Of a DNA stretch of 47,783 nucleotides, positions 744-17,035 are shown piece by piece. The notes under the pieces were generated by a model. It was not told the DNA's origin and ran no database searches. It saw nothing but the letters and a program-made list of their open reading frames with translations. The position numbers and the translations under genes were made by a program. The first letter of the stretch is position 1, and each line of letters begins with the position of its first letter. The stretch covers positions 1-47,783 of the forward strand of contig QOQK01000007.1 of assembly GCA_003331985.1 (NCBI GenBank), given 5' to 3'. The stretch comes from PS1 clade bacterium. Lineage in GTDB: Bacteria; Pseudomonadota; Alphaproteobacteria; RS24.

Positions 744-1535
744 ATGAAAAAAACGTCCTCAAGCCCGAAATTCAGCACCAAAAACCGGAAATCCAATAAA
801 TCCGGGCGAAAAGAAACACCTCACGAGGACGACAGCATAATTTACGGTTTGCATGCCGTGATTGCGGCTCTGCAAAACCCTGCCCGCAAATGTCAAAAAC
901 TGTTGGCAACGAAAAATGCACTTAATGAAATCCGACAACAGACAGACATTCCACCAAATCTGGATATTCAGGAGGCTTCACCGGATCAAATCAATAAAAA
1001 ACTAAAACCGGGGACTGTGCATCAAGGGGCTTTGCTCAATGCCTCCCCTCTCCCGGAGGTTAGCCTCGAGACAATTACGGCCAGTGGCAAGCCCATTATC
1101 GTATTGGATCAAGTGACGGACCCAAGAAATATTGGTGCGATTATCCGTGCCGCCACGGTTTTCGGTGCCGGAGGATTAATTATGACTCGTCATAATAGCC
1201 CCGCATCTGGCGGTGCTTTAGCAAAAACAGCTTCTGGTGCACTTGAAAAAATGCCCCTCGTGCGTGTGGCTAATCTTGCCAGATGCCTAGAAAGCCTCAC
1301 GGAAGCCGGATATCTGACCTGCGGACTTGATGAAGAAGGCACACAATGGCTAGGTGATATACCCCGTGACCAGCCAATTGCCTGTGTTATGGGCGCGGAG
1401 GGAAAAGGCTTAAGACGCCTTACCAAAGAAAATTGCGCACAACTTGTTCGCCTGACTGCGACTGATGCCTCTAGCTTTGCGACGCTTAATGTCGCTACCG
1501 CCACCGCAGTCGCGCTATACGAGATTGTCAGATAG
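744..1535 (+). CDS. rlmB: 23S rRNA (guanosine-2'-O)-methyltransferase, RlmB/TrmH (SpoU) family
   Basis: This 263-residue protein has a lysine/serine-rich N-terminus (about 1-30), an SpoU substrate-binding domain (about 33-110, beginning IIYGLHAVIAAL) and a SPOUT methyltransferase domain. Motif I is VTDPRNIGAIIRAA (about 124-137), motif II is MGAEGKGLRRL and motif III is LNVATATAVALYE near the C-terminus. The family uses SAM to 2'-O-methylate a guanosine; RlmB acts on G2251 of 23S rRNA in E. coli. Its place beside tRNA-Tyr/tuf is common in Alphaproteobacteria. A purine-rich AAAGGCGG precedes the ATG. Its last 8 bp overlap the 3' end of the convergent blh gene. The family is certain; the exact rRNA target is inferred. 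Confidence 0.93.
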   Translation: MKKTSSSPKFSTKNRKSNKSGRKETPHEDDSIIYGLHAVIAALQNPARKCQKLLATKNALNEIRQQTDIPPNLDIQEASPDQINKKLKPGTVHQGALLNASPLPEVSLETITASGKPIIVLDQVTDPRNIGAIIRAATVFGAGGLIMTRHNSPASGGALAKTASGALEKMPLVRVANLARCLESLTEAGYLTCGLDEEGTQWLGDIPRDQPIACVMGAEGKGLRRLTKENCAQLVRLTATDASSFATLNVATATAVALYEIVR

Positions 1536-2361
1536 AAAATTTATGATGCTTGCGTAAGCCATCAACCAGCACCATATGCGGGACAGTAAGCGCGGCAAGA
1601 CCAATGAACAGCCCCGCCGTAAGCGCCTCGGTAAAATGTGCCTGCGCCTGCAGAGCAAACAGAAAAATCACCCCTATGGGCAGAGCCGAAAACAGCAGAA
1701 TTTGCCCGAGATGCCCCGATTTAACCAAGCCGCCATCTATTTGGGTATTCAGAACCACAAAATGCCTGAGTGAATGGACGCAGCAAAAGTAAATCGCAAA
1801 CGACCAAAGTGGCGGGAGAATGAAATACAGCCCGACGAGAAGAAGCAAAAGAGCCGTCTCCCTCCCACCGGTTTTGGGAAGATAGGAAAGCATAATGCCA
1901 AAAGCTGCCAACCATACAGGTAATAAAAAGATAACGTAGATTATAAGATAAGAGGCCGCCTGTCCGGACATAAGAACAAACACATCATTTACAGGAATAG
2001 GGTGAAATAATGGAATAAGCAGAACCGGCCCCCCACCCATAGCAATAATTCTAGCCCAATGATGAAGGCGGTTTTGCGATTGGGTTCCTCTAGCAATCAG
2101 GTCAGAGGCCGATACATCGCCAAGGCCAAAATGAATGCAGGACTGAATAAGAAACAATAACAGACCAAGCACGGGGTAGACATACCATAACGCCACAACC
2201 ATCCCGGCAATAGCAAGATATGAACTTACAAAAACGACCCAGCCTTTCGGAGTGGGTATAAAATTTTTGAAAGCGAGCAAACCGTCTCCTGCTCCGTGGG
2301 GTAATCCAACGAGCATAATAAATAAAACTGGAAGCAAATCGATAAACGTCATTGGCACCAT
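1528..2361 (-). CDS. blh: Beta-carotene 15,15'-dioxygenase, Brp/Blh family (retinal synthesis)
   Basis: This polytopic membrane protein of 277 residues carries the histidine signatures of the Brp/Blh family: PHGAGD (21-26), IHFG (76-79), HSLRHF (about 195) and PHMVLVD near the C-terminus. The family cleaves beta-carotene into two retinal molecules using non-heme iron held by these histidines. It is the last gene of the crtEIBY-blh operon, and its ATG overlaps the crtY stop by one base (TAATG), so translation is probably coupled. Its product would be the rhodopsin chromophore, but no opsin gene is in the window. Identification rests on the motifs together with the neighbours. Confidence 0.93.
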   Translation of the reverse strand: MVPMTFIDLLPVLFIMLVGLPHGAGDGLLAFKNFIPTPKGWVVFVSSYLAIAGMVVALWYVYPVLGLLLFLIQSCIHFGLGDVSASDLIARGTQSQNRLHHWARIIAMGGGPVLLIPLFHPIPVNDVFVLMSGQAASYLIIYVIFLLPVWLAAFGIMLSYLPKTGGRETALLLLLVGLYFILPPLWSFAIYFCCVHSLRHFVVLNTQIDGGLVKSGHLGQILLFSALPIGVIFLFALQAQAHFTEALTAGLFIGLAALTVPHMVLVDGLRKHHKFSI

Positions 2362-3503
2362 TAAAATCTGACAATACTTTTCAAAAACGGCCCAGACGGC
2401 ATGGCATTAATTGTCTTTAGTTTTGGCATAAAACCTGACCGGCCATTCATAAATCTAGCAAAATCATCTGCCTTAACTTTCGTAGCCATTCGGGTGAAAA
2501 GTTTTGGCGCCAATTCAGGTTTTTTGCTCAGCACATCCAACATAATATCATCCATCCATCGCTCAAAAAAATCAGCTCCCGCTTCGGGTAAATCCCAAAT
2601 CAGCGTTTTGCGCTTCGCATAATCATAGGCCTGTCGGCTTATCTGAGCAAAGGCATAAGAACTAGAGGCACGCATCGCATTAGCTGCCAAACCAAAAGGG
2701 ATGCACCCTTCATTCTGCTTTGGCTTTACTGTCGACATTGGTAAAACCCCTTCTTCCTCTTTCAACACCGTGACCTGCTCGCCTTTTAGATGCAGAGAAC
2801 GCTTGATATAATGTGCAATCTGTTCCCTATACCACTCTGGATCATGGGGCCTGCGTGAAAACACAGTCGACTCGATAAAAGCTTTCTTTTCCGTAAAAGG
2901 CAAAACATACATAAAATGTATGCCGTCTTGCTGAGACACACGAAAGTCCATCAACATTAACTGGCCTGGGTTAAAAGTATTTTTGGAAACTTTGATATGC
3001 TGGCCAAGAAAATGCTGCTTCATACAATCATATGGCGCAATATAATTCACAGTATCGAAAACATGATGTGCAGTAATTGTCTGCTCATCTTTCATCAGCA
3101 TGCGTGTATAATCCTCATTGATAGAGGTTTTCATCACCGCACCATTCACAAATCTAACATTAGCTCTGGTACATTTTTCTGCCAAAGCTTTCATATAAGT
3201 GCCGGATGAAACGGCATAATAATGATAGTCTTGCCCGCACATTACTTTTGCATTGCTCGGTTCAGCAATCTGCCAGTGCCACCACTGCGACAGCGCATGC
3301 TCACGCGCCAATGAAAGATGCGGGCTTCCATTATCCCAGAAACCCCATATATGGTCTGGCTTCGGCATACCGTCATCGACAACTAGAATTTTGAGATCAT
3401 GGAATTGTGAAAGATGGTAGGCGAGACTTAAACCTGCCAGCCCACCACCGATAATTCCAACATCGGCTCGACGCCTTTGTTTAGCAATGCGACGACCGGA
3501 CAT
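2361..3503 (-). CDS. crtY: Lycopene beta-cyclase, CrtY type
   Basis: This FAD/NAD(P)-dependent cyclase of 380 residues has an N-terminal dinucleotide fold (GGGLAG, about 19-24) and an IWGFWD motif matching the family's W-x-F-x-D pattern. It converts lycopene to beta-carotene by closing both ends. The frame can be extended to a TTG at 3515, but the ATG at 3503 is preferred. Either start overlaps the end of crtB (by 23 bp for the ATG), which suggests translational coupling. It lies between crtB and blh in the retinal operon. Confidence 0.93.
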   Translation of the reverse strand: MSGRRIAKQRRRADVGIIGGGLAGLSLAYHLSQFHDLKILVVDDGMPKPDHIWGFWDNGSPHLSLAREHALSQWWHWQIAEPSNAKVMCGQDYHYYAVSSGTYMKALAEKCTRANVRFVNGAVMKTSINEDYTRMLMKDEQTITAHHVFDTVNYIAPYDCMKQHFLGQHIKVSKNTFNPGQLMLMDFRVSQQDGIHFMYVLPFTEKKAFIESTVFSRRPHDPEWYREQIAHYIKRSLHLKGEQVTVLKEEEGVLPMSTVKPKQNEGCIPFGLAANAMRASSSYAFAQISRQAYDYAKRKTLIWDLPEAGADFFERWMDDIMLDVLSKKPELAPKLFTRMATKVKADDFARFMNGRSGFMPKLKTINAMPSGPFLKSIVRF

Positions 3504-4446
3504 GCGGTAAACCAATCAGATGTTTATGAAGTTCAGATGAATGTTTGACTTTTTTTGTATATCTAAACCTTACATCAACTAAGGCAGAGAAACTTGAGAT
3601 GATTTTTGTGCCAGACCCTGTAACCTCTCGGGTAGACCAGTTATAAAAATTTTTGGACCGCATGCGATGGCCAATCGCCTGATAAGCTCGTCCGGCAACT
3701 GCAATAGCTGTTCGCGCTCGAGCAGGTAGATATGGCAAACCCTGAAAGCCGGAAACATAATATTTATCTGCAAGTCGCAATAAACGATAAAGGGATAGTT
3801 GCACCAAATGGCTTATCTCGGTTTCCGAGTCATCCGCAGCCGCCCTACAGATTTCTGCTGCAGATAAATCTGCGCACCAGTCAGCAGGGATGTAGCGCCG
3901 ACCCATTCGGGCATCCTCAGCAATGTCGCGGGCAATATTAGTTAGCTGCATAGCAATGCCTAAATCAATTGCATGGGCATAAGCATCTTCGTCATAACAC
4001 CCAAGAACTGAACTCATAAGAACCCCAACCGTTCCGGCAACACGATATGCATAGCGCAACAAATCAGCTTCACTTTGTAATTCGGCAGGCTCTCTGTCAC
4101 TAATCAGCCCTTCAAGCAATTCGTTCAATGCCGGTAAGGACAAATGATTTATATTGGCAAAATCCAGAAACCTTGCAAACTCATCCATCTGACCCGAGGG
4201 CGCAACTGCTCCTGATAGTTTTTTCTGCATGTCCTCAATGCGCGTATGACCTTGTGCTAACCCGTCATCCGCCAAATCATCAAGGTAGCGACAGAACGCA
4301 TAAAGTTGTGCCGCCTTGTCGCCATTTTCTTTACCCAAGAAACGGCGCGCCCAGTTAAAAGTTTTACCATGCTTGGCAAGCGTCGCCGCAGAGTCCTCAT
4401 ATGGTAAAAAAATCTCACTCTCAGAAAAAGACGCCGGTCCGTTCAT
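3481..4446 (-). CDS. crtB: 15-cis-phytoene synthase
   Basis: The 321-residue trans-isoprenyl diphosphate synthase-fold protein condenses two GGPP molecules into phytoene. It shows both aspartate-rich motifs: DDLAD in YLDDLADD (about 52-56) and NIARDIAEDARMGRRYIP (about 170-187), the latter a hallmark of squalene/phytoene synthases. Its ATG overlaps the crtI stop as ATGA (4446-4443), and its 3' end overlaps crtY. Length is normal for bacterial CrtB. Confidence 0.95.
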   Translation of the reverse strand: MNGPASFSESEIFLPYEDSAATLAKHGKTFNWARRFLGKENGDKAAQLYAFCRYLDDLADDGLAQGHTRIEDMQKKLSGAVAPSGQMDEFARFLDFANINHLSLPALNELLEGLISDREPAELQSEADLLRYAYRVAGTVGVLMSSVLGCYDEDAYAHAIDLGIAMQLTNIARDIAEDARMGRRYIPADWCADLSAAEICRAAADDSETEISHLVQLSLYRLLRLADKYYVSGFQGLPYLPARARTAIAVAGRAYQAIGHRMRSKNFYNWSTREVTGSGTKIISSFSALVDVRFRYTKKVKHSSELHKHLIGLPHVRSSHC

Positions 4447-5987
4447 TCACCCGCCTCCGCTAAAAAATCAGTTGTAAATCCTTGCGTCTGAATATCAGAC
4501 TGCGAGGGAATCATTTTCTCTAAAGCTTTTGCAGAACTTAAAACACCAGGCAAACCTGCACCCGGATGTGTTCCCGCGCCAACAAAATAAAGATTATCTA
4601 TATCCGGATCCTGATTGTGATACCTGAACCAGGCTGATTGCCTGAAAACCGGCGCAATAGAAAAACCCGCTCCATGCGTTGCGCGGTATTGTTTCTCAAA
4701 ATCCCCCGGATGCATCCAGAAATCTGCAGTTACATGATTTTCAAGATCCGGCATGATTGTCTCAGAAAGAGCTTTAACAATTCGGTCACGTAATTCAGGG
4801 CCATAAATATCCCAGTCAATATTGCCCTGCAAATTCGGCACCGGGCAAAGAATATAAAAACTGTCACACCCCTCTGGCGCAAAAGAAGGATCTGTCGCCG
4901 TAGGGCGATGGAGATAAAGCGAAAAGTCATCCGTTGCAATTTGCTTATTGAAGATATCATTCAGCAAACCTTTAAATCGTTCACCGAGCCATATGGTATG
5001 ATGCGCCACATCGGGATATTGGCGCGTGGTTCCGAAATAGAGAACATAAAGACCCATAGAATATTTGGTTAATGCTTCTGGAATTATTTTTTTGGGACGC
5101 AAGAACGACTTGCCGCCTAGAGGCATCATTTCACGATAGACCGTCGGCGGGTCAGCATTGCAAACAACAAGGTCTGCGTCCATCTGTCGACCATCAACAC
5201 ATCTTATACCGGTAACTTTTTTGCCACTAACAATAATTTCCTCAACATCTGCACCGGTATGAATGTCAACGCCATGCCGCCGCATCAGTTTTTCCAGTTC
5301 GGAAACCAGCTTACCAGTCCCTCCCATGCAAAAATGAACACCCCATTTGCGCTCTAAATAATGTATCAGCGCATAAATACTCGTTGTGTCGTAGGGATTA
5401 CCGCCAACCAATAACGGATGAATAGAAAGAGCCTGCTGTAAATAAGGGTGCGTAATATATTTTTTTACAAACTGGGAAACCGTTAAATAACTCCGCAATT
5501 TCAAAAGTGCGGGAACTTGTTTTAACATGTCTGTAAATTTCAAAAACGGTTGATCTGCAAGCTTCTCAAATCCAACCTCAAAAATTTCCCGTGATGCTTC
5601 TAGCAATCTGCCATAGCCCTCAATATCAGCCTCACGGTATCTAGCCATCCCTGCTTCAAATGCAGCCATATCATCCCCATAGTCAAAATCTGACCCATCG
5701 GGAAAGTGAAATCTGTACCATGGCGACACGGGAACAAACTCCATGTGATCGGAGATATTTTCATCAAAGAGAGAAAACAACTCTTCAAACATAAAGGGGG
5801 CTGTAATCACAGTTGGCCCAGCATCATGACGGAAGCCATCTTTTTCAAAGACTTGAGCGCGCCCGCCAAGACTATCCAGGCGCTCAACAAGATCCACATG
5901 ATAGCCAAGAGCACGCAATCTGAGCGCAGCTCCAATTCCACCAAATCCAGATCCAATGACAAGGGCCTTAGGCAGATGTTCGTTCAT
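4443..5987 (-). CDS. crtI: Phytoene desaturase (lycopene-forming)
   Basis: This CrtI-family amine-oxidase-fold flavoprotein of 514 residues has the N-terminal FAD motif GSGFGGIGAA (12-21) followed by LGGRAQVFE. The C-terminal FAD signature is YFVGAGTHPGAGLPGV with SSAKALEKM after it. It carries out the successive desaturations of phytoene that lead to lycopene. It lies 12 bp after crtE and overlaps crtB by 4 bp. The number of desaturation steps is inferred from the downstream lycopene cyclase. Confidence 0.95.
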   Translation of the reverse strand: MNEHLPKALVIGSGFGGIGAALRLRALGYHVDLVERLDSLGGRAQVFEKDGFRHDAGPTVITAPFMFEELFSLFDENISDHMEFVPVSPWYRFHFPDGSDFDYGDDMAAFEAGMARYREADIEGYGRLLEASREIFEVGFEKLADQPFLKFTDMLKQVPALLKLRSYLTVSQFVKKYITHPYLQQALSIHPLLVGGNPYDTTSIYALIHYLERKWGVHFCMGGTGKLVSELEKLMRRHGVDIHTGADVEEIIVSGKKVTGIRCVDGRQMDADLVVCNADPPTVYREMMPLGGKSFLRPKKIIPEALTKYSMGLYVLYFGTTRQYPDVAHHTIWLGERFKGLLNDIFNKQIATDDFSLYLHRPTATDPSFAPEGCDSFYILCPVPNLQGNIDWDIYGPELRDRIVKALSETIMPDLENHVTADFWMHPGDFEKQYRATHGAGFSIAPVFRQSAWFRYHNQDPDIDNLYFVGAGTHPGAGLPGVLSSAKALEKMIPSQSDIQTQGFTTDFLAEAGE

Positions 5988-5999
5988 AGGGCGGTTAAC

Positions 6000-7094
6000 C
6001 TAACTGGATGTGCTGGAGGTTGACGAGATGTGATAAATCTTCTGGCTTGCAGCAGAGAGATAATCCGTAACGGGTAACAAGACACTTTTCATGTCATAGG
6101 CATAATCATTGAGATCTTTATCAACCTCTGCCAGCAAGGATGTTATTTTATCCGCCGCCAACTTACCGCCGGTCATAAGAAGTTCCCGCATCCATTTTTC
6201 ATCTGTATGTGCGCAAACTGAACCTTGCATAAATTTTTCATCAAATTCCTTGCGGGATCCGTTGACCAGACTGTCTCTGAAAAGAATGACTACAGCGTTG
6301 GGAGACTGTCTTAAAACATCTCCACCCTGTCGTGCTGCACCATCAGTTCCCATCAGGTTTTTGATGTCATTTGTAATTTGATAGGCAAGCCCGAGATTAC
6401 CAAAGACATTTTCGAGGCGGTGATAATCCTCATGCAAACTGGCAAGCATAAACATACCCTCTACAGGAATACTAATCAGTTGCCCGGTTTTCCCAGAAAC
6501 AATTCGACTGTAATGGGCCCAATTTGGATAGCTGGAAGATACAAATTCTGAGGCTTGACCCGTTGAGAGCGCCGACATGCCTTTTGCCAGCAGGGCCGTA
6601 CTCGCTGTTTTTGACCCGGTATAAGAATAAGCCAGACTGTCTGCTTCTGCGGCATGAACAAAAGATTGTGCGACCAACCAATCACCGAGACATATAGCCT
6701 GCTGAAGCCCAAAGGCTTTCCAGATAGTCTCTCGGTTACGTCGGCTGGTGTCTTCATCACAAATATCATCATGTACAAGAGATGCATTGTGCAAAAATTC
6801 CACGCTCAGCGCCCATTGCATGGCAATGTCGCGATTTAAATCAAGCATCTCACCTGCCGCAAGAGCGATTTGACCACGGATAAGTTTTCCAGGTTCAGCA
6901 AAATGATGAATAGCGGCGGCACTTAAAGGATGATTATTAGAGGGTAACTGACTTTTGATATTCAAAAGCAGTCCCTTCAGTGTCTCTTGGGAATTACGTG
7001 AAGGTTTTTGTTGATTCCGAAAAGGGATATTCGAATCAGAACGAGTCTGAAGCGCCTTCATTCCCTCCATTAGTTCAGGCAGCAAACCGGACAT
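6000..7094 (-). CDS. crtE: Geranylgeranyl diphosphate synthase (polyprenyl synthetase family)
   Basis: This 364-residue protein is the first gene of the retinal operon and would supply GGPP to CrtB. The first aspartate-rich motif is intact (VHDDICDED, followed by two Arg in TSRRNRE). The second is degenerate: QITNDIKNL in place of the usual Q-x-x-DDxxD. The longest frame starts at a TTG at 7112; the ATG at 7094 is chosen because GAGGAG lies 7 nt upstream of it. The first 50 or so residues before the conserved core form a family-variable extension. The family is sure; GGPP as product is inferred from context. Confidence 0.88.
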   Translation of the reverse strand: MSGLLPELMEGMKALQTRSDSNIPFRNQQKPSRNSQETLKGLLLNIKSQLPSNNHPLSAAAIHHFAEPGKLIRGQIALAAGEMLDLNRDIAMQWALSVEFLHNASLVHDDICDEDTSRRNRETIWKAFGLQQAICLGDWLVAQSFVHAAEADSLAYSYTGSKTASTALLAKGMSALSTGQASEFVSSSYPNWAHYSRIVSGKTGQLISIPVEGMFMLASLHEDYHRLENVFGNLGLAYQITNDIKNLMGTDGAARQGGDVLRQSPNAVVILFRDSLVNGSRKEFDEKFMQGSVCAHTDEKWMRELLMTGGKLAADKITSLLAEVDKDLNDYAYDMKSVLLPVTDYLSAASQKIYHISSTSSTSS

Positions 7095-7157
7095 TACTCT
7101 ACTCCTCAACAATTCCGACTGTAAATTCGGTTACCCTCCCAGGTGCCGAACTGAGCC

Positions 7158-7195
7158 TATACAGTCGCTAAACAGGATTTATTCAAGAAATCCTG
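7158..7195 (-). promoter_or_regulatory. Candidate crtE operon promoter overlapping an inverted repeat
   Basis: On the minus strand TTGAAT (7186-7181) and TGTATA (7163-7158) are separated by 17 bp, a plausible sigma-70 promoter about 60 bp before the crtE ATG. The -35 box lies in the loop of a perfect 8-bp inverted repeat, CAGGATTT (7173-7180) and AAATCCTG (7188-7195). A protein bound there could block transcription of crtEIBY-blh. The match and the palindrome are seen; the function is inferred. Confidence 0.35.
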
Positions 7196-7343
7196 ATAAC
7201 AAATATGAAACGGGTGAATCAGTAACTGCTGTTTTCACTTAAAAAACTGCAAAACCCCCGCCCCACAAACAATACAACAAATCAAAACATTGCCGCAAAA
7301 CCACTATGCGAACACGAATTGAACCGGTCAAGCACTATCTATG

Positions 7344-7368: not shown

Positions 7369-7551
7369 GGCCAAGCTCAAAATAGCTCTAAGAAAATACC
7401 CTGCGGAAAAAGGCAGGTAAATTTTGCGTTATTCTTTCTTAGTATTTAGCTTCATATAGCGCACTCTTTACTGGCAAAATGAGAAGTAATTTTGAACTGC
7501 CAAGATGTTTCAAATCAATTGAAAAAATAGAATGCAAAAATTGGAGATAAT

Positions 7552-8757
7552 ATGCCGACCCAAATTTCTGATGTTCCTGAAAACCTCCTAAGTGATTTTG
7601 ATTTGGTTGCCGATCCGGAAATGATGCGCAACCCACAACAAAGAATGACAGATGCACTCGTCAATGACGGGCGGGATATATTCTACACACCTCATAATGG
7701 CGGGCACTGGATTGTCACTAATTATGAAATGGGGCATGAAATTTTGAGCAACCCTGAACTTTATGGTTCATTCCCAATTGGTGTGCCTGCTAATTACGAA
7801 CAACGCCCGCGCTTGATACCACTAGAAAGTGATCCGCAAAGTCACCCGCGTTATCGTCGCCTCCTGCTCCCGGTATTCGCGCCAAATATCATCAGTAAAA
7901 TGGAAGACAAAATTCGCCAACGAACAATCAGTGTTCTTGAGGAGGCCCTGCAATCGCCAGAAATTGACTTTCTTTGGGATATTGCCAAACCCATTCCAAC
8001 AGGTGTGTTTCTGGAAATGCTCGGCCTCCCCCAGCATATGCAACCGCAGTTCTTTGAATGGGAAAACGGTTTTTACAGAGCTGAAACTGTCGAGGCGCGT
8101 GTCGATTATGGCCAAAAGATTGCTCACTATTTAAGCCAAGCGGCAGAAGACCATGTCACCAATCCACGCGATGATGTGATGAGCATGTTGCTTGAAGTAG
8201 AGGTTGAAGGCGAAAGGCTTTCTCGCGACGAGGTGGATGCAATTTGTTATTTACTGTTTCTCGCCGGGGTGGACACAGTTGCCGCCATGCTGACCTTCAT
8301 CGCCAATTACCTTGCACAAAATCAGGATCTTTATCAGAAAATTAAAGCCGACAAAGAATTTCTGGAAACGGCAACCGATGAACTCCTCCGTATGCACGCC
8401 TTCATCAATCTGAATCGTATATGCGAAGCGGATACCGAATTCCACGGTGTGCATTTCAAACAAGGCGATAATATTGTTGTTCCATCATTCGTTACTGACC
8501 GTGATGCGGCAACTTTCCCCGATCCGCATAATTTCAATCCTGAGCGTTCGAAAGTTGAGCGCAATATGCATCATGCTTTTGGTGACGGCCCACATAAATG
8601 CATCGGCATGCATCTGGCCAAGCTGGAAGTAAAAATTGTGTTGGAGGAATTTGCCAAGCGGGTTGAAGCATTTTCAATCACTGATGAAAGCAAAATTTCG
8701 GCTCATGGCGGCACAACGATGGGCATGGATAATTTACCCATCACATGGACTGCTTGA
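7552..8757 (+). CDS. Cytochrome P450
   Basis: This soluble bacterial P450 of 401 residues is a heme-thiolate monooxygenase. The I-helix oxygen-activation motif is AGVDT (238-242), the K-helix ExxR is ELLR (277-280), and the heme loop FGDGPHKCIG (343-352) puts the thiolate ligand at Cys350. No ferredoxin or reductase gene lies nearby, so electrons must come from partners encoded elsewhere. GGAG precedes the ATG by 5 nt. It is divergent from crtE across a 457-bp gap and convergent with the TonB receptor. The substrate is unknown; a terpenoid or carotenoid-derived compound is one possibility suggested only by position. Confidence 0.93.
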   Translation: MPTQISDVPENLLSDFDLVADPEMMRNPQQRMTDALVNDGRDIFYTPHNGGHWIVTNYEMGHEILSNPELYGSFPIGVPANYEQRPRLIPLESDPQSHPRYRRLLLPVFAPNIISKMEDKIRQRTISVLEEALQSPEIDFLWDIAKPIPTGVFLEMLGLPQHMQPQFFEWENGFYRAETVEARVDYGQKIAHYLSQAAEDHVTNPRDDVMSMLLEVEVEGERLSRDEVDAICYLLFLAGVDTVAAMLTFIANYLAQNQDLYQKIKADKEFLETATDELLRMHAFINLNRICEADTEFHGVHFKQGDNIVVPSFVTDRDAATFPDPHNFNPERSKVERNMHHAFGDGPHKCIGMHLAKLEVKIVLEEFAKRVEAFSITDESKISAHGGTTMGMDNLPITWTA

Positions 8758-8775
8758 GCGTCGTTTATCAGCGAA

Positions 8776-10833
8776 CTAAAAAACCTTCTTTAAACCAAGG
8801 GAAAAATGCCTCTGTTCACCGGGGAAGTAACGGGCATTTCCAAAAGCAAAATCTGCACGTTTGGCGTATTTTTCATTAAACAAATTCATTACCCGCAGAC
8901 TTAAAAATGCCCCGTCCGTAATCTCACGCGCCAGTGTCAAATCGACCAAATCGTGACCCGGATAATCATTGTTGTTTCGCTCGTCAGTATAATATTTGCC
9001 GGTATATTGCCAGGTGAGCTTTACTGAAGAAACATCATCCGGCCTCCAAATTGCTGAGAAATTACCCAGGCGTCGTGGCGCGGTATCAATATCACTTCCC
9101 TTAACAATACCATTAGGCGTATGGCTAAAATCGTAACTATGTAAAGCATATGTTAGTTGAGAACTCAGGGTCAGGTTTTGCGAGGGGCTGAATTGCACAT
9201 CAAGCTCAAGACCCTCATGACTGGTTTTCCCATTACTCACATTTTCATTATTGGAGTCACGAAAATGAAAATGCTTCTTCTGCATTTTATAAATTGCGAT
9301 CTCATAACTGAACAACCTCGCTGACGGCCCCATACCTCCCCGCATCCCGATTTCAAAACTGTCAATCTGTTCGGCTTTTATTGTTTCAGGTGTCTGCCCG
9401 TTACGAAGGCGGTATAAATCTGTTGTCTGGGGCGCACGATGACCACGTTTAAGATTTGCAAAAAAAGTTTGCTTCCCAATTTTATTTACCCAGCCAAGCT
9501 TCGGCGACCATGTTTGAAAATCATCATCTCTATCAGCCGGACGGAAAAATCGTCCAAAAGCGCCATCGCTCGTCTCGTTTTTATATGCATAGGCTGTGTG
9601 CTCTCCGCGCAAGCCAATTGTCATTAGGGCGGTCTTACCCATCGGTATTTCACCATGAACAAAACCTGCAAATGTCTCTGCCTTGACGGTGTAATCATAC
9701 TGGACACCCGGCAAAAATCCAAATTGCGCCGGGCGTTTTTGGATTTGCGTCAGTTCTCCTTCTGTGGCTTCAACATCAAGACCATAAACCAACTCAGATA
9801 GAAATTCAGAGGCATCGAATTTTTGCGTAAACGCTGATTGAACACCGACACTATAATGACGGTTGGTTTCTTCCGGGTCAGCACTGGCAAGAAAGTGCAT
9901 TAAAAAACGCATATCGTGATAACGGATATAAGGTGTCAGGCGCAAAGTTCTGTTGCCAGATAATTTTTTTTCCGCATAAAGAGCCGCCCTAAAACTTTCA
10001 GCATTTCTAAATGCGTTGTCATCAGTGTTCTTTTTGGCGAGTTGCTTGTCACGGTAACTTGTTGCGTAGCCGGCAGTTTCTTGCTCTAGATGATTGGCAG
10101 ATATGACCAACCTATAATCAGTGTCGGCCCCGCCTTTCCACCCAGATTGAAATTTGAGTTTTTGCTGATCAAACCCTGAAGCCGCTCGATAACCTTCAGT
10201 TTCACCTGAAAAAGTGACCCCTAGCCTGTAGACTTTTTCGTAACTATCATTTTGTGAACTCATATTTGTTGTGAAACGATACCTACCATAACTCCCCAAT
10301 CGCGCTTGAACATTGGAAGTGGGGTCATACGGCGATGGCGCAATAAAATTCACCAGACCATGAACGGCGTTAGACCCATACATGGCGGCGCCCGGGCCTC
10401 TAATGACCTCAAGTCGTTCACTATGTTCATTTTGAGCATCAAGCAGCGCATTCACATTTGAAAACCCCGCCGCACGAAACGCTATGCCATCTTCCATAAA
10501 TAAAAATGACCCTGCACCTGCCCCACCGACAAGCACCGGAGAACGAATTGAAGTCAGATGTTCCACCCCACTTCCGCGATGCATCATCACACCCGGGACA
10601 ACAGCAAGTGCGTCAACAGGATGGATGAATGTTTCATCCTCATTAATAACACTTATATTCCCGGGCATGTTTTGCTTGAAGGACTCACTCCGCTTACCGG
10701 TCACAATTAAGCGCTGAAGCATAAGTTCTTCATGTGCCTCATCAGCCCAAACCTCGTCTGGCGACCAGAAAATAAGCGTAGCCATATAACAGGCAGCAAT
10801 GAAAAATAATTTAAGGAAACAGAAACGTTGCAT
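8776..10833 (-). CDS. TonB-dependent outer-membrane receptor
   Basis: This 685-residue protein has an N-terminal signal segment (about 5-30, ending near VWADEAHEE), then a candidate TonB box LQRLIVTG. The plug domain follows, with VPGVMMHRG and LEVIRGPGAAMYGSNAVHGLVNF, and then a 22-strand type barrel ending in a terminal phenylalanine (LGLKKVF). The family imports iron chelates, vitamins or other large ligands using TonB energy. No TonB, siderophore or ABC genes flank it, so the ligand is unknown. The longer frame begins at a TTG (10845); the ATG at 10833 is preferred, although no strong Shine-Dalgarno is visible. Tandem repeats lie just upstream. Confidence 0.92.
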   Translation of the reverse strand: MQRFCFLKLFFIAACYMATLIFWSPDEVWADEAHEELMLQRLIVTGKRSESFKQNMPGNISVINEDETFIHPVDALAVVPGVMMHRGSGVEHLTSIRSPVLVGGAGAGSFLFMEDGIAFRAAGFSNVNALLDAQNEHSERLEVIRGPGAAMYGSNAVHGLVNFIAPSPYDPTSNVQARLGSYGRYRFTTNMSSQNDSYEKVYRLGVTFSGETEGYRAASGFDQQKLKFQSGWKGGADTDYRLVISANHLEQETAGYATSYRDKQLAKKNTDDNAFRNAESFRAALYAEKKLSGNRTLRLTPYIRYHDMRFLMHFLASADPEETNRHYSVGVQSAFTQKFDASEFLSELVYGLDVEATEGELTQIQKRPAQFGFLPGVQYDYTVKAETFAGFVHGEIPMGKTALMTIGLRGEHTAYAYKNETSDGAFGRFFRPADRDDDFQTWSPKLGWVNKIGKQTFFANLKRGHRAPQTTDLYRLRNGQTPETIKAEQIDSFEIGMRGGMGPSARLFSYEIAIYKMQKKHFHFRDSNNENVSNGKTSHEGLELDVQFSPSQNLTLSSQLTYALHSYDFSHTPNGIVKGSDIDTAPRRLGNFSAIWRPDDVSSVKLTWQYTGKYYTDERNNNDYPGHDLVDLTLAREITDGAFLSLRVMNLFNEKYAKRADFAFGNARYFPGEQRHFSLGLKKVF

Positions 10834-10876
10834 GTGTTTAATCAATCATGAATTGAGGAAATATCAATTCGTAAAA

Positions 10877-16959: not shown

Positions 16960-17035
16960 TGGTGCCGGCACACGGACTTGAACCGCGGACCCTCTGATTA
17001 CAAATCAGATGCTCTACCAACTGAGCTATACCGGC
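16960..17035 (-). tRNA. tRNA-Thr (anticodon TGT)
   Basis: The reverse complement has acceptor GCCGGTA paired with TGCCGGC (one G-T wobble), a D-arm with TAGCTCAGTTGGTAGAGC, anticodon loop TTTGTAA (anticodon TGT, reads ACA), T-arm GGTTCAAGTCC and an encoded CCA at 16962-16960. It lies upstream of gpgP on the same strand. The gap 17036-17173 between it and trhO must hold both divergent promoters. Confidence 0.97.

Follow-up and report, generated by a model that had tools for sequence, protein, structure and literature searches.

A retinal operon and a separately encoded proteorhodopsin gene in a PS1 clade alphaproteobacterium

In the proteorhodopsin photosystem cluster, the opsin gene lies beside crtE-crtI-crtB-crtY-blh. 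In Verrucomicrobiota, the retinal cluster adjoins the rhodopsin gene in most rhodopsin-bearing members, and its order resembles that of other prokaryotes (PMC10284914). The region of Dokdonia MED134 compared in PMC3587595 holds just blh and the opsin gene, and the other crt genes presumably lie elsewhere in that genome. Opsin genes without blh are described in Aurantimicrobium minutum and Luna-1 actinobacteria (PMC7734400, PMC12422013), as in most opsin-bearing genomes of the sister genera described below. A. minutum was concluded to make its own retinal (PMC7734400), and carotenoid genes are widespread in Luna-1 (PMC12422013). The available parts of PMC13266375 contain nothing on PS1 rhodopsins.

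The window, that is the whole 47,783-nt stretch of DNA analysed, is contig C48 of a PS1 clade genome (G000; 1.32 Mb in 50 contigs, 78% complete, contamination listed as 0). It encodes the same five enzymes as the photosystem cluster, and the opsin gene is at a different locus. Unlike Dokdonia, where blh stays with the opsin gene, this genome has all five pathway genes, blh among them, apart from the opsin, as blh is in two other genomes of a class-wide sample (G232 and G321). The genus of the window also differs from the Blh-less rhodopsin carriers in that the full pathway is present. We conclude that the operon very probably supplies the retinal for an ordinary proteorhodopsin photosystem, the opsin gene of which lies at a second, separate locus. 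The retinal genes, the opsin, its key residues and the conservation of the split in the genus were observed here, and the complete retinal pathway most likely feeds the separately encoded proteorhodopsin. As judged from family assignments, CrtE, CrtB, CrtI and CrtY would produce beta-carotene and Blh would cleave it to retinal. The retinal would then be transferred to the lysine of the separately encoded opsin, a putative blue-tuned, light-driven proton pump.

Gene content and site of the operon

The five genes crtE-crtI-crtB-crtY-blh occupy positions 1528-7094 of the window on the minus strand. The sequence-only reading had taken them for a compact operon with a complete retinal gene set, and each predicted product did match the expected family. 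Adjacent genes overlap or are 12 bases apart, so a single transcript is likely. The crtE gene (6000-7094) encodes a putative geranylgeranyl diphosphate synthase (PF00348, 1.3e-38). Its start was placed at the ATG at 7094, in agreement with the earlier reading, because this codon and a ribosome-binding-like site upstream of it (GAGGAG) are conserved across the five operon-holding genomes of the genus; a longer frame opens with TTG at 7112. The crtI gene (4443-5987, 514 amino acids) is a probable phytoene desaturase gene, as indicated by the broad family PF01593 (2.2e-30) together with its operon context. The crtB gene (3481-4446, 321 amino acids; PF00494, 1.3e-50) and the crtY gene (2361-3515, 384 amino acids; PF05834, 2.6e-49) encode a putative phytoene synthase and lycopene beta-cyclase, respectively. 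A possible alternative start of crtY is the ATG at 3503, four codons inside the frame.

The last gene, blh (1528-2361), matched the Blh/Brp beta-carotene 15,15'-dioxygenase family PF15461 (BCD) over residues 14-268 at 3e-41. The score of 142 bits stands against a cut-off of 28, and positions 3-266 of the 267 in the profile were covered. In 25 of 25 full-length Blh sequences, to which this genus contributed five, residues H22, D26, H77, H196, H200 and H262 were identical, and D82 was kept in 24 of the 25 (residue numbers are 15 lower than in the alignment frame, which begins 15 residues earlier). In the 66A03 Blh enzyme, His21, His78, His188 and His192 are essential for activity (PMC9227343); H22, H77, H196 and H200 correspond to them by order and spacing, not by alignment. 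One scan of named genomes, which may omit very near records, returned three loci with Blh relatives. Two, at 97 and 93% identity, are from alphaproteobacteria assembled from metagenomes, and the third, at 86%, is from Alpha proteobacterium IMCC14465, which belongs to the PS1 clade in the NCBI taxonomy. The Blh tree, which had long branches and gave warnings, placed the genus near G039 and a fragment from G011 (supports 85/81 and 95/89).

The flanking genes were also as first read. An rlmB-type 23S rRNA methyltransferase gene (744-1535, plus strand; PF00588, 8.7e-32) is convergent with blh, and a cytochrome P450 gene (7552-8757, plus strand; PF00067, 1.8e-32) is divergent from crtE. The P450 gene adjoins crtE in G006, G010, G007 and G009 as it does in the window. 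Past crtE, at window positions 7552-10845, a CYP101-like P450 and a TonB receptor plug-domain protein are encoded in three regions of the genus (the window, L083 and L085). The operon and its neighbours are bounded by rlmB on one side and a rhodanese/GST gene pair on the other in all three regions of the genus that were compared. The same interval in three genomes of other genera (G026, G012 and G003) instead contains thiolase, nitronate monooxygenase and alkylsulfatase genes (families were tested in G026 and the others were assigned by homology; the pair in G012 was recognised by the GST gene alone). The neighbours of rlmB thus differ in the three other-genus genomes compared. A tRNA-Thr(tgt) gene (16960-17035, minus strand) lies near the far end of the operon interval, and such a gene was present in the interval in 3/3 genus regions vs 0/3 other-genus regions.

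The opsin locus and its separation from the operon

The sequence-only reading had seen no opsin in the 47 kb and had suggested that one may be elsewhere, and both points held. The rhodopsin profile PF01036, which is distinct from that of heliorhodopsin, gave a single match in the whole G000 assembly (E 1.3e-44, without stops), on contig C23 and none in the window. The match is a proteorhodopsin gene at G000:C23:49728-50369. Its 251-residue product carries RYVDWVLTVPLQMVEFYLI and DFVNKIAFG, with the D..T...Q..E motif and retinal lysine of proton-pumping proteorhodopsins (presumably D97, T101, Q105, E108 and K231). The top solved match was 9r22, titled just 'microbial rhodopsin', and blue and green proteorhodopsins came next. 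Against the green proteorhodopsin 8cqc (E 9e-74), the D, T, E and lysine were all matched, and against the blue proteorhodopsin 4kly (E 7e-75) the solved chain has N instead of the acceptor D; the DFVNKIAFG stretch of the last helix aligns with both types at the retinal-binding lysine. Flotillin-associated rhodopsins also matched (9r23, E 3e-66; others weaker). Residue 105 sets the colour of proteorhodopsins, blue forms having glutamine there and green forms leucine (PMC10807816). The residues thus suggest that the G000 opsin is of the blue-tuned type and acts as a light-driven proton pump.

The opsin gene sits between genes for two small cyclic-nucleotide-binding proteins and an ATPase, which we take from its sequence to be mrp/apbC-like. 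The opsin gene of G010 has the same neighbours, and so do those of G006 and G009, except that three genes intervene on the ATPase side in the latter two. The genes for the two cyclic-nucleotide-binding proteins (L088:8705-9464, minus strand; PF00027; 127 and 137 amino acids) overlap and read away from the opsin gene; their products are possible regulators.

Separation of the opsin from the operon is a trait of the genus. In G000 the two are on different contigs (blh on C48, opsin on C23). One contig carries both in two genus mates, where they are about 96 kb apart (G006; blh at C3:928369, opsin at C3:832163) or about 100 kb apart (G010; blh at C4:1631, opsin at C4:102239). The opsin therefore does not adjoin the crt-blh genes in any of these three genomes, as it would in a photosystem cluster. 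In G007 (90% complete), blh was present and opsin undetected, the sole such case seen in the family. The G007 assembly also lacks the gene found next after the opsin locus in the five other genomes of the genus, which points to an assembly gap.

To place this arrangement, 385 genomes of the class were searched for Blh and opsin. Blh was found in 22 and an opsin match in 36 (35 above the cut-off). All 22 Blh genomes also had an opsin, and 14 opsin genomes were without Blh (Fisher p 1e-26, which is overstated since the genomes are related). In 16 of the 22, no more than 5 kb separated the opsin from blh. Both genes were far apart on one contig in G006, G232 (about 708 kb) and G321 (about 89 kb), and on different contigs in G000, G135 and G186. 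With a distant or other-contig opsin in 6 of 22 Blh genomes, the arrangement of the window is thus in the minority but ordinary. Since each Blh genome of this sample also encodes an opsin, near or far, the apparent oddity is removed: the puzzle of a retinal pathway without an opsin does not hold, and the finding, though real, is an ordinary one.

Control of the two loci is a different matter. According to the sequence-only reading, an opsin elsewhere that was co-regulated with the operon would make this an ordinary split arrangement. The opsin is there, on C23, but no sign of common control was found, which counts against the split photosystem: regions upstream of crtE (three genomes) and of the opsin gene (four genomes), aligned and compared by eye, had no common longer motif, and no second copy of the crtE leader described below was seen. 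The upstream regions of crtE and of the opsin gene each contain a conserved TTGAC-containing block.

Other explanations are conceivable. The earlier suggestion that retinal or beta-carotene serves another purpose, such as membrane protection or an apocarotenoid product, would make the opsin incidental. Beta-carotene can generally protect membranes, the operon is not beside the opsin, a P450 gene adjoins crtE in the genus, and G007 has blh with opsin undetected. However, the constant company of opsin in the Blh genomes of the class sample and the likeness of G007 to an assembly gap leave this suggestion without support, and the operon terminates in blh, whose product would consume beta-carotene. 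Among the best 60 of 491 solved matches of the P450, many are named camphor 5-monooxygenase or CYP101, and these matches, CYP101-type or similar, include no carotenoid enzyme. A role outside rhodopsin is highly improbable on this evidence. It is also very unlikely that the rhodopsin uses a carotenoid antenna besides retinal and that both pigments come from the operon. The operon could provide beta-carotene, and the binding of hydroxylated carotenoids by some proteorhodopsins and xanthorhodopsins (PMC12308411) speaks for an antenna. Yet none of the five operon genes matched a carotenoid hydroxylase or ketolase family, and the opsin is nearest to proteorhodopsins, with a far weaker match to xanthorhodopsin 3ddl (E 1.2e-15). 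The antenna glycine is replaced by a bulky residue in green and blue proteorhodopsins (PMC9151804), which would argue against an antenna if this opsin is alike.

Finally, the opsin contig could be a binning contaminant, in which case the genome would hold retinal genes without a true opsin. The assembly is fragmented and incomplete, the operon and the opsin are on separate contigs, and the G+C content of the opsin gene itself (0.427) is below that of its surroundings. Against this, G+C is nearly equal in the opsin region (0.459) and in the window (0.458), the listed contamination is 0, and the gene order around the opsin is common to the genus mates: in four other genomes of the genus the opsin gene adjoins the mrp-like gene or is three genes off it (G006 and G009). 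The proteins flanking the opsin are 93-99% identical between G000 and its nearest relative, G009, so contig C23 is well binned; for comparison, Blh is 97% identical between the two. We regard contamination as extremely improbable, and retain a single photosystem encoded at two loci as the best explanation.

Opsins and retinal genes in the genus and family

The opsin itself varies inside the genus while the retinal operon is unchanged. The opsins of G000 and G009 are only 59% identical (L088:9626-10381 vs L089:9326-10081), between the flanks of 93-99% identity given above, and they differ at the colour position, although both genomes hold the retinal operon. Position 105 is Q in G000 and G010 and L in G006, G008 and G009. 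One strong split (100/100) in the opsin tree, the root of which is arbitrary, separated G000 and G010 together with four g5 opsins from G006, G008 and G009 together with g3 and g6. These data fit an exchange of opsin genes at a locus that itself stayed in place, with the retinal operon retained. The three extra genes by the L105 opsin of G006 (L082:10459-13515) encode a protein without a match, a TonB receptor and a carbonic anhydrase, and homologues are found at the same place in G009. In G008, the mrp-like gene is within about 250 bases of the opsin gene and the three extra genes are absent. A reading of the three as a flotillin cluster was dropped in view of these Pfam results on the G006 copies.

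Among the 28 genomes of the family, opsin was found in 23, Blh in 6 (that of G011 in two pieces on two contigs) and both in 5. Blh was thus undetected in 18 of the 23 opsin genomes, including G008 (56% complete). A stricter set of 15 genomes (completeness 90% or more, contamination 5% or less) included 13 with an opsin, 10 of which were without Blh; one of these is G026, in three contigs and listed as 100% complete. The pattern was noted at loci L001:1399-2154 and L002-L023. An RPE65-type oxygenase (PF03055) was found in 0 of the 28 genomes; the control matched in 2 of 14 known genomes. Phytoene synthase matches above 160 bits were confined to the six Blh genomes, the other 22 having a partial match of 35-68 bits (17 genomes) or none (5 genomes). 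Lycopene cyclase matches above 160 bits came from the same six. This profile gave some match in all 28 genomes, above the cut-off in 11, and we read the remaining matches (at most 26 bits, mostly in the first 35-50 positions) as a probable general FAD-binding stretch. In contrast to Luna-1 with its widespread carotenoid genes, the Blh-less genomes of the family are therefore without a strong match to either enzyme.

The Blh-less opsins outside the genus (n = 17, G008 excluded) had a median pairwise dN/dS of 0.05 (range 0.006-0.203; computed from the 54 of 136 pairs whose dS was 0.05-1.5), and the motif and the lysine are retained in every one of the 17. They thus appear to be maintained by selection. 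Use of outside retinal is the likeliest explanation, and they may alternatively have an unknown retinal pathway. No report of opsins without retinal genes in this family was found in the literature searched, which was mostly without subscription papers. One genus probably makes retinal and its sister genera keep opsins without a known route to it, a natural experiment on retinal supply between marine bacteria, and opsins without retinal genes at family level are a better question than the split operon.

The region upstream of crtE

The last 110 bases up to the crtE start codon are more conserved than the sequence just upstream (25-column windows scored 0.75-0.98 vs 0.32-0.61), and a folded 5′ leader at 7092-7201 (minus strand) is a candidate cis-regulatory RNA, as suggested by its fold and conservation. 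It consists of a hairpin followed by a three-part (long, interrupted) stem with a GGGA loop. The predicted energy of 7092-7200 was -29.8 kcal/mol (z -2.17), equalled by 5 of 200 shuffles. The consensus of five genomes has 27 pairs, with 97.8% of 135 cells paired, and pairing fell to 24-47% when the partners were slid. One pair was changed on both sides across the five genomes. Covariation was not significant: 89 of 500 shuffles scored at least as high, and 110 of 500 had at least as many both-sided changes.

At the gathering score, Rfam gave three tRNAs alone in the window and nothing on the leader. A permissive search gave one chance-level match (RgsA, E 5.7), on the opposite strand and off the leader. 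A model built from the five genus genomes (R1) had five strong matches among the 28 family genomes, namely the same five genomes with one copy each; in 4 of the 28, part of the first-look candidates was scored. There was no second copy in G000 and none at the opsin locus, and a weak match in G025 (E 0.58) was counted as noise. In the class sample, searched with stricter filters, 2 of 385 genomes matched (G000 and G006), both among the building five.

The leader as a regulatory RNA is a lead, not a result. A rather doubtful extension of it would be that a new cis-regulatory RNA sets the retinal supply independently of the opsin locus and lets differently coloured opsins be swapped elsewhere with the pathway untouched, and that the sister genera, which lost the pathway or never had it, run their opsins on retinal leaked by such producers.

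Two further conserved stretches lie between the leader and the P450 gene. A promoter-like block, TTGACC-17-CATAGT (7303-7331, minus strand), contains a 25-column stretch with a mean pairwise identity of 0.96 among the five genus genomes, and is a putative promoter. Nearer the P450 gene, a second block is conserved in the same five genomes at roughly 7400-7457.
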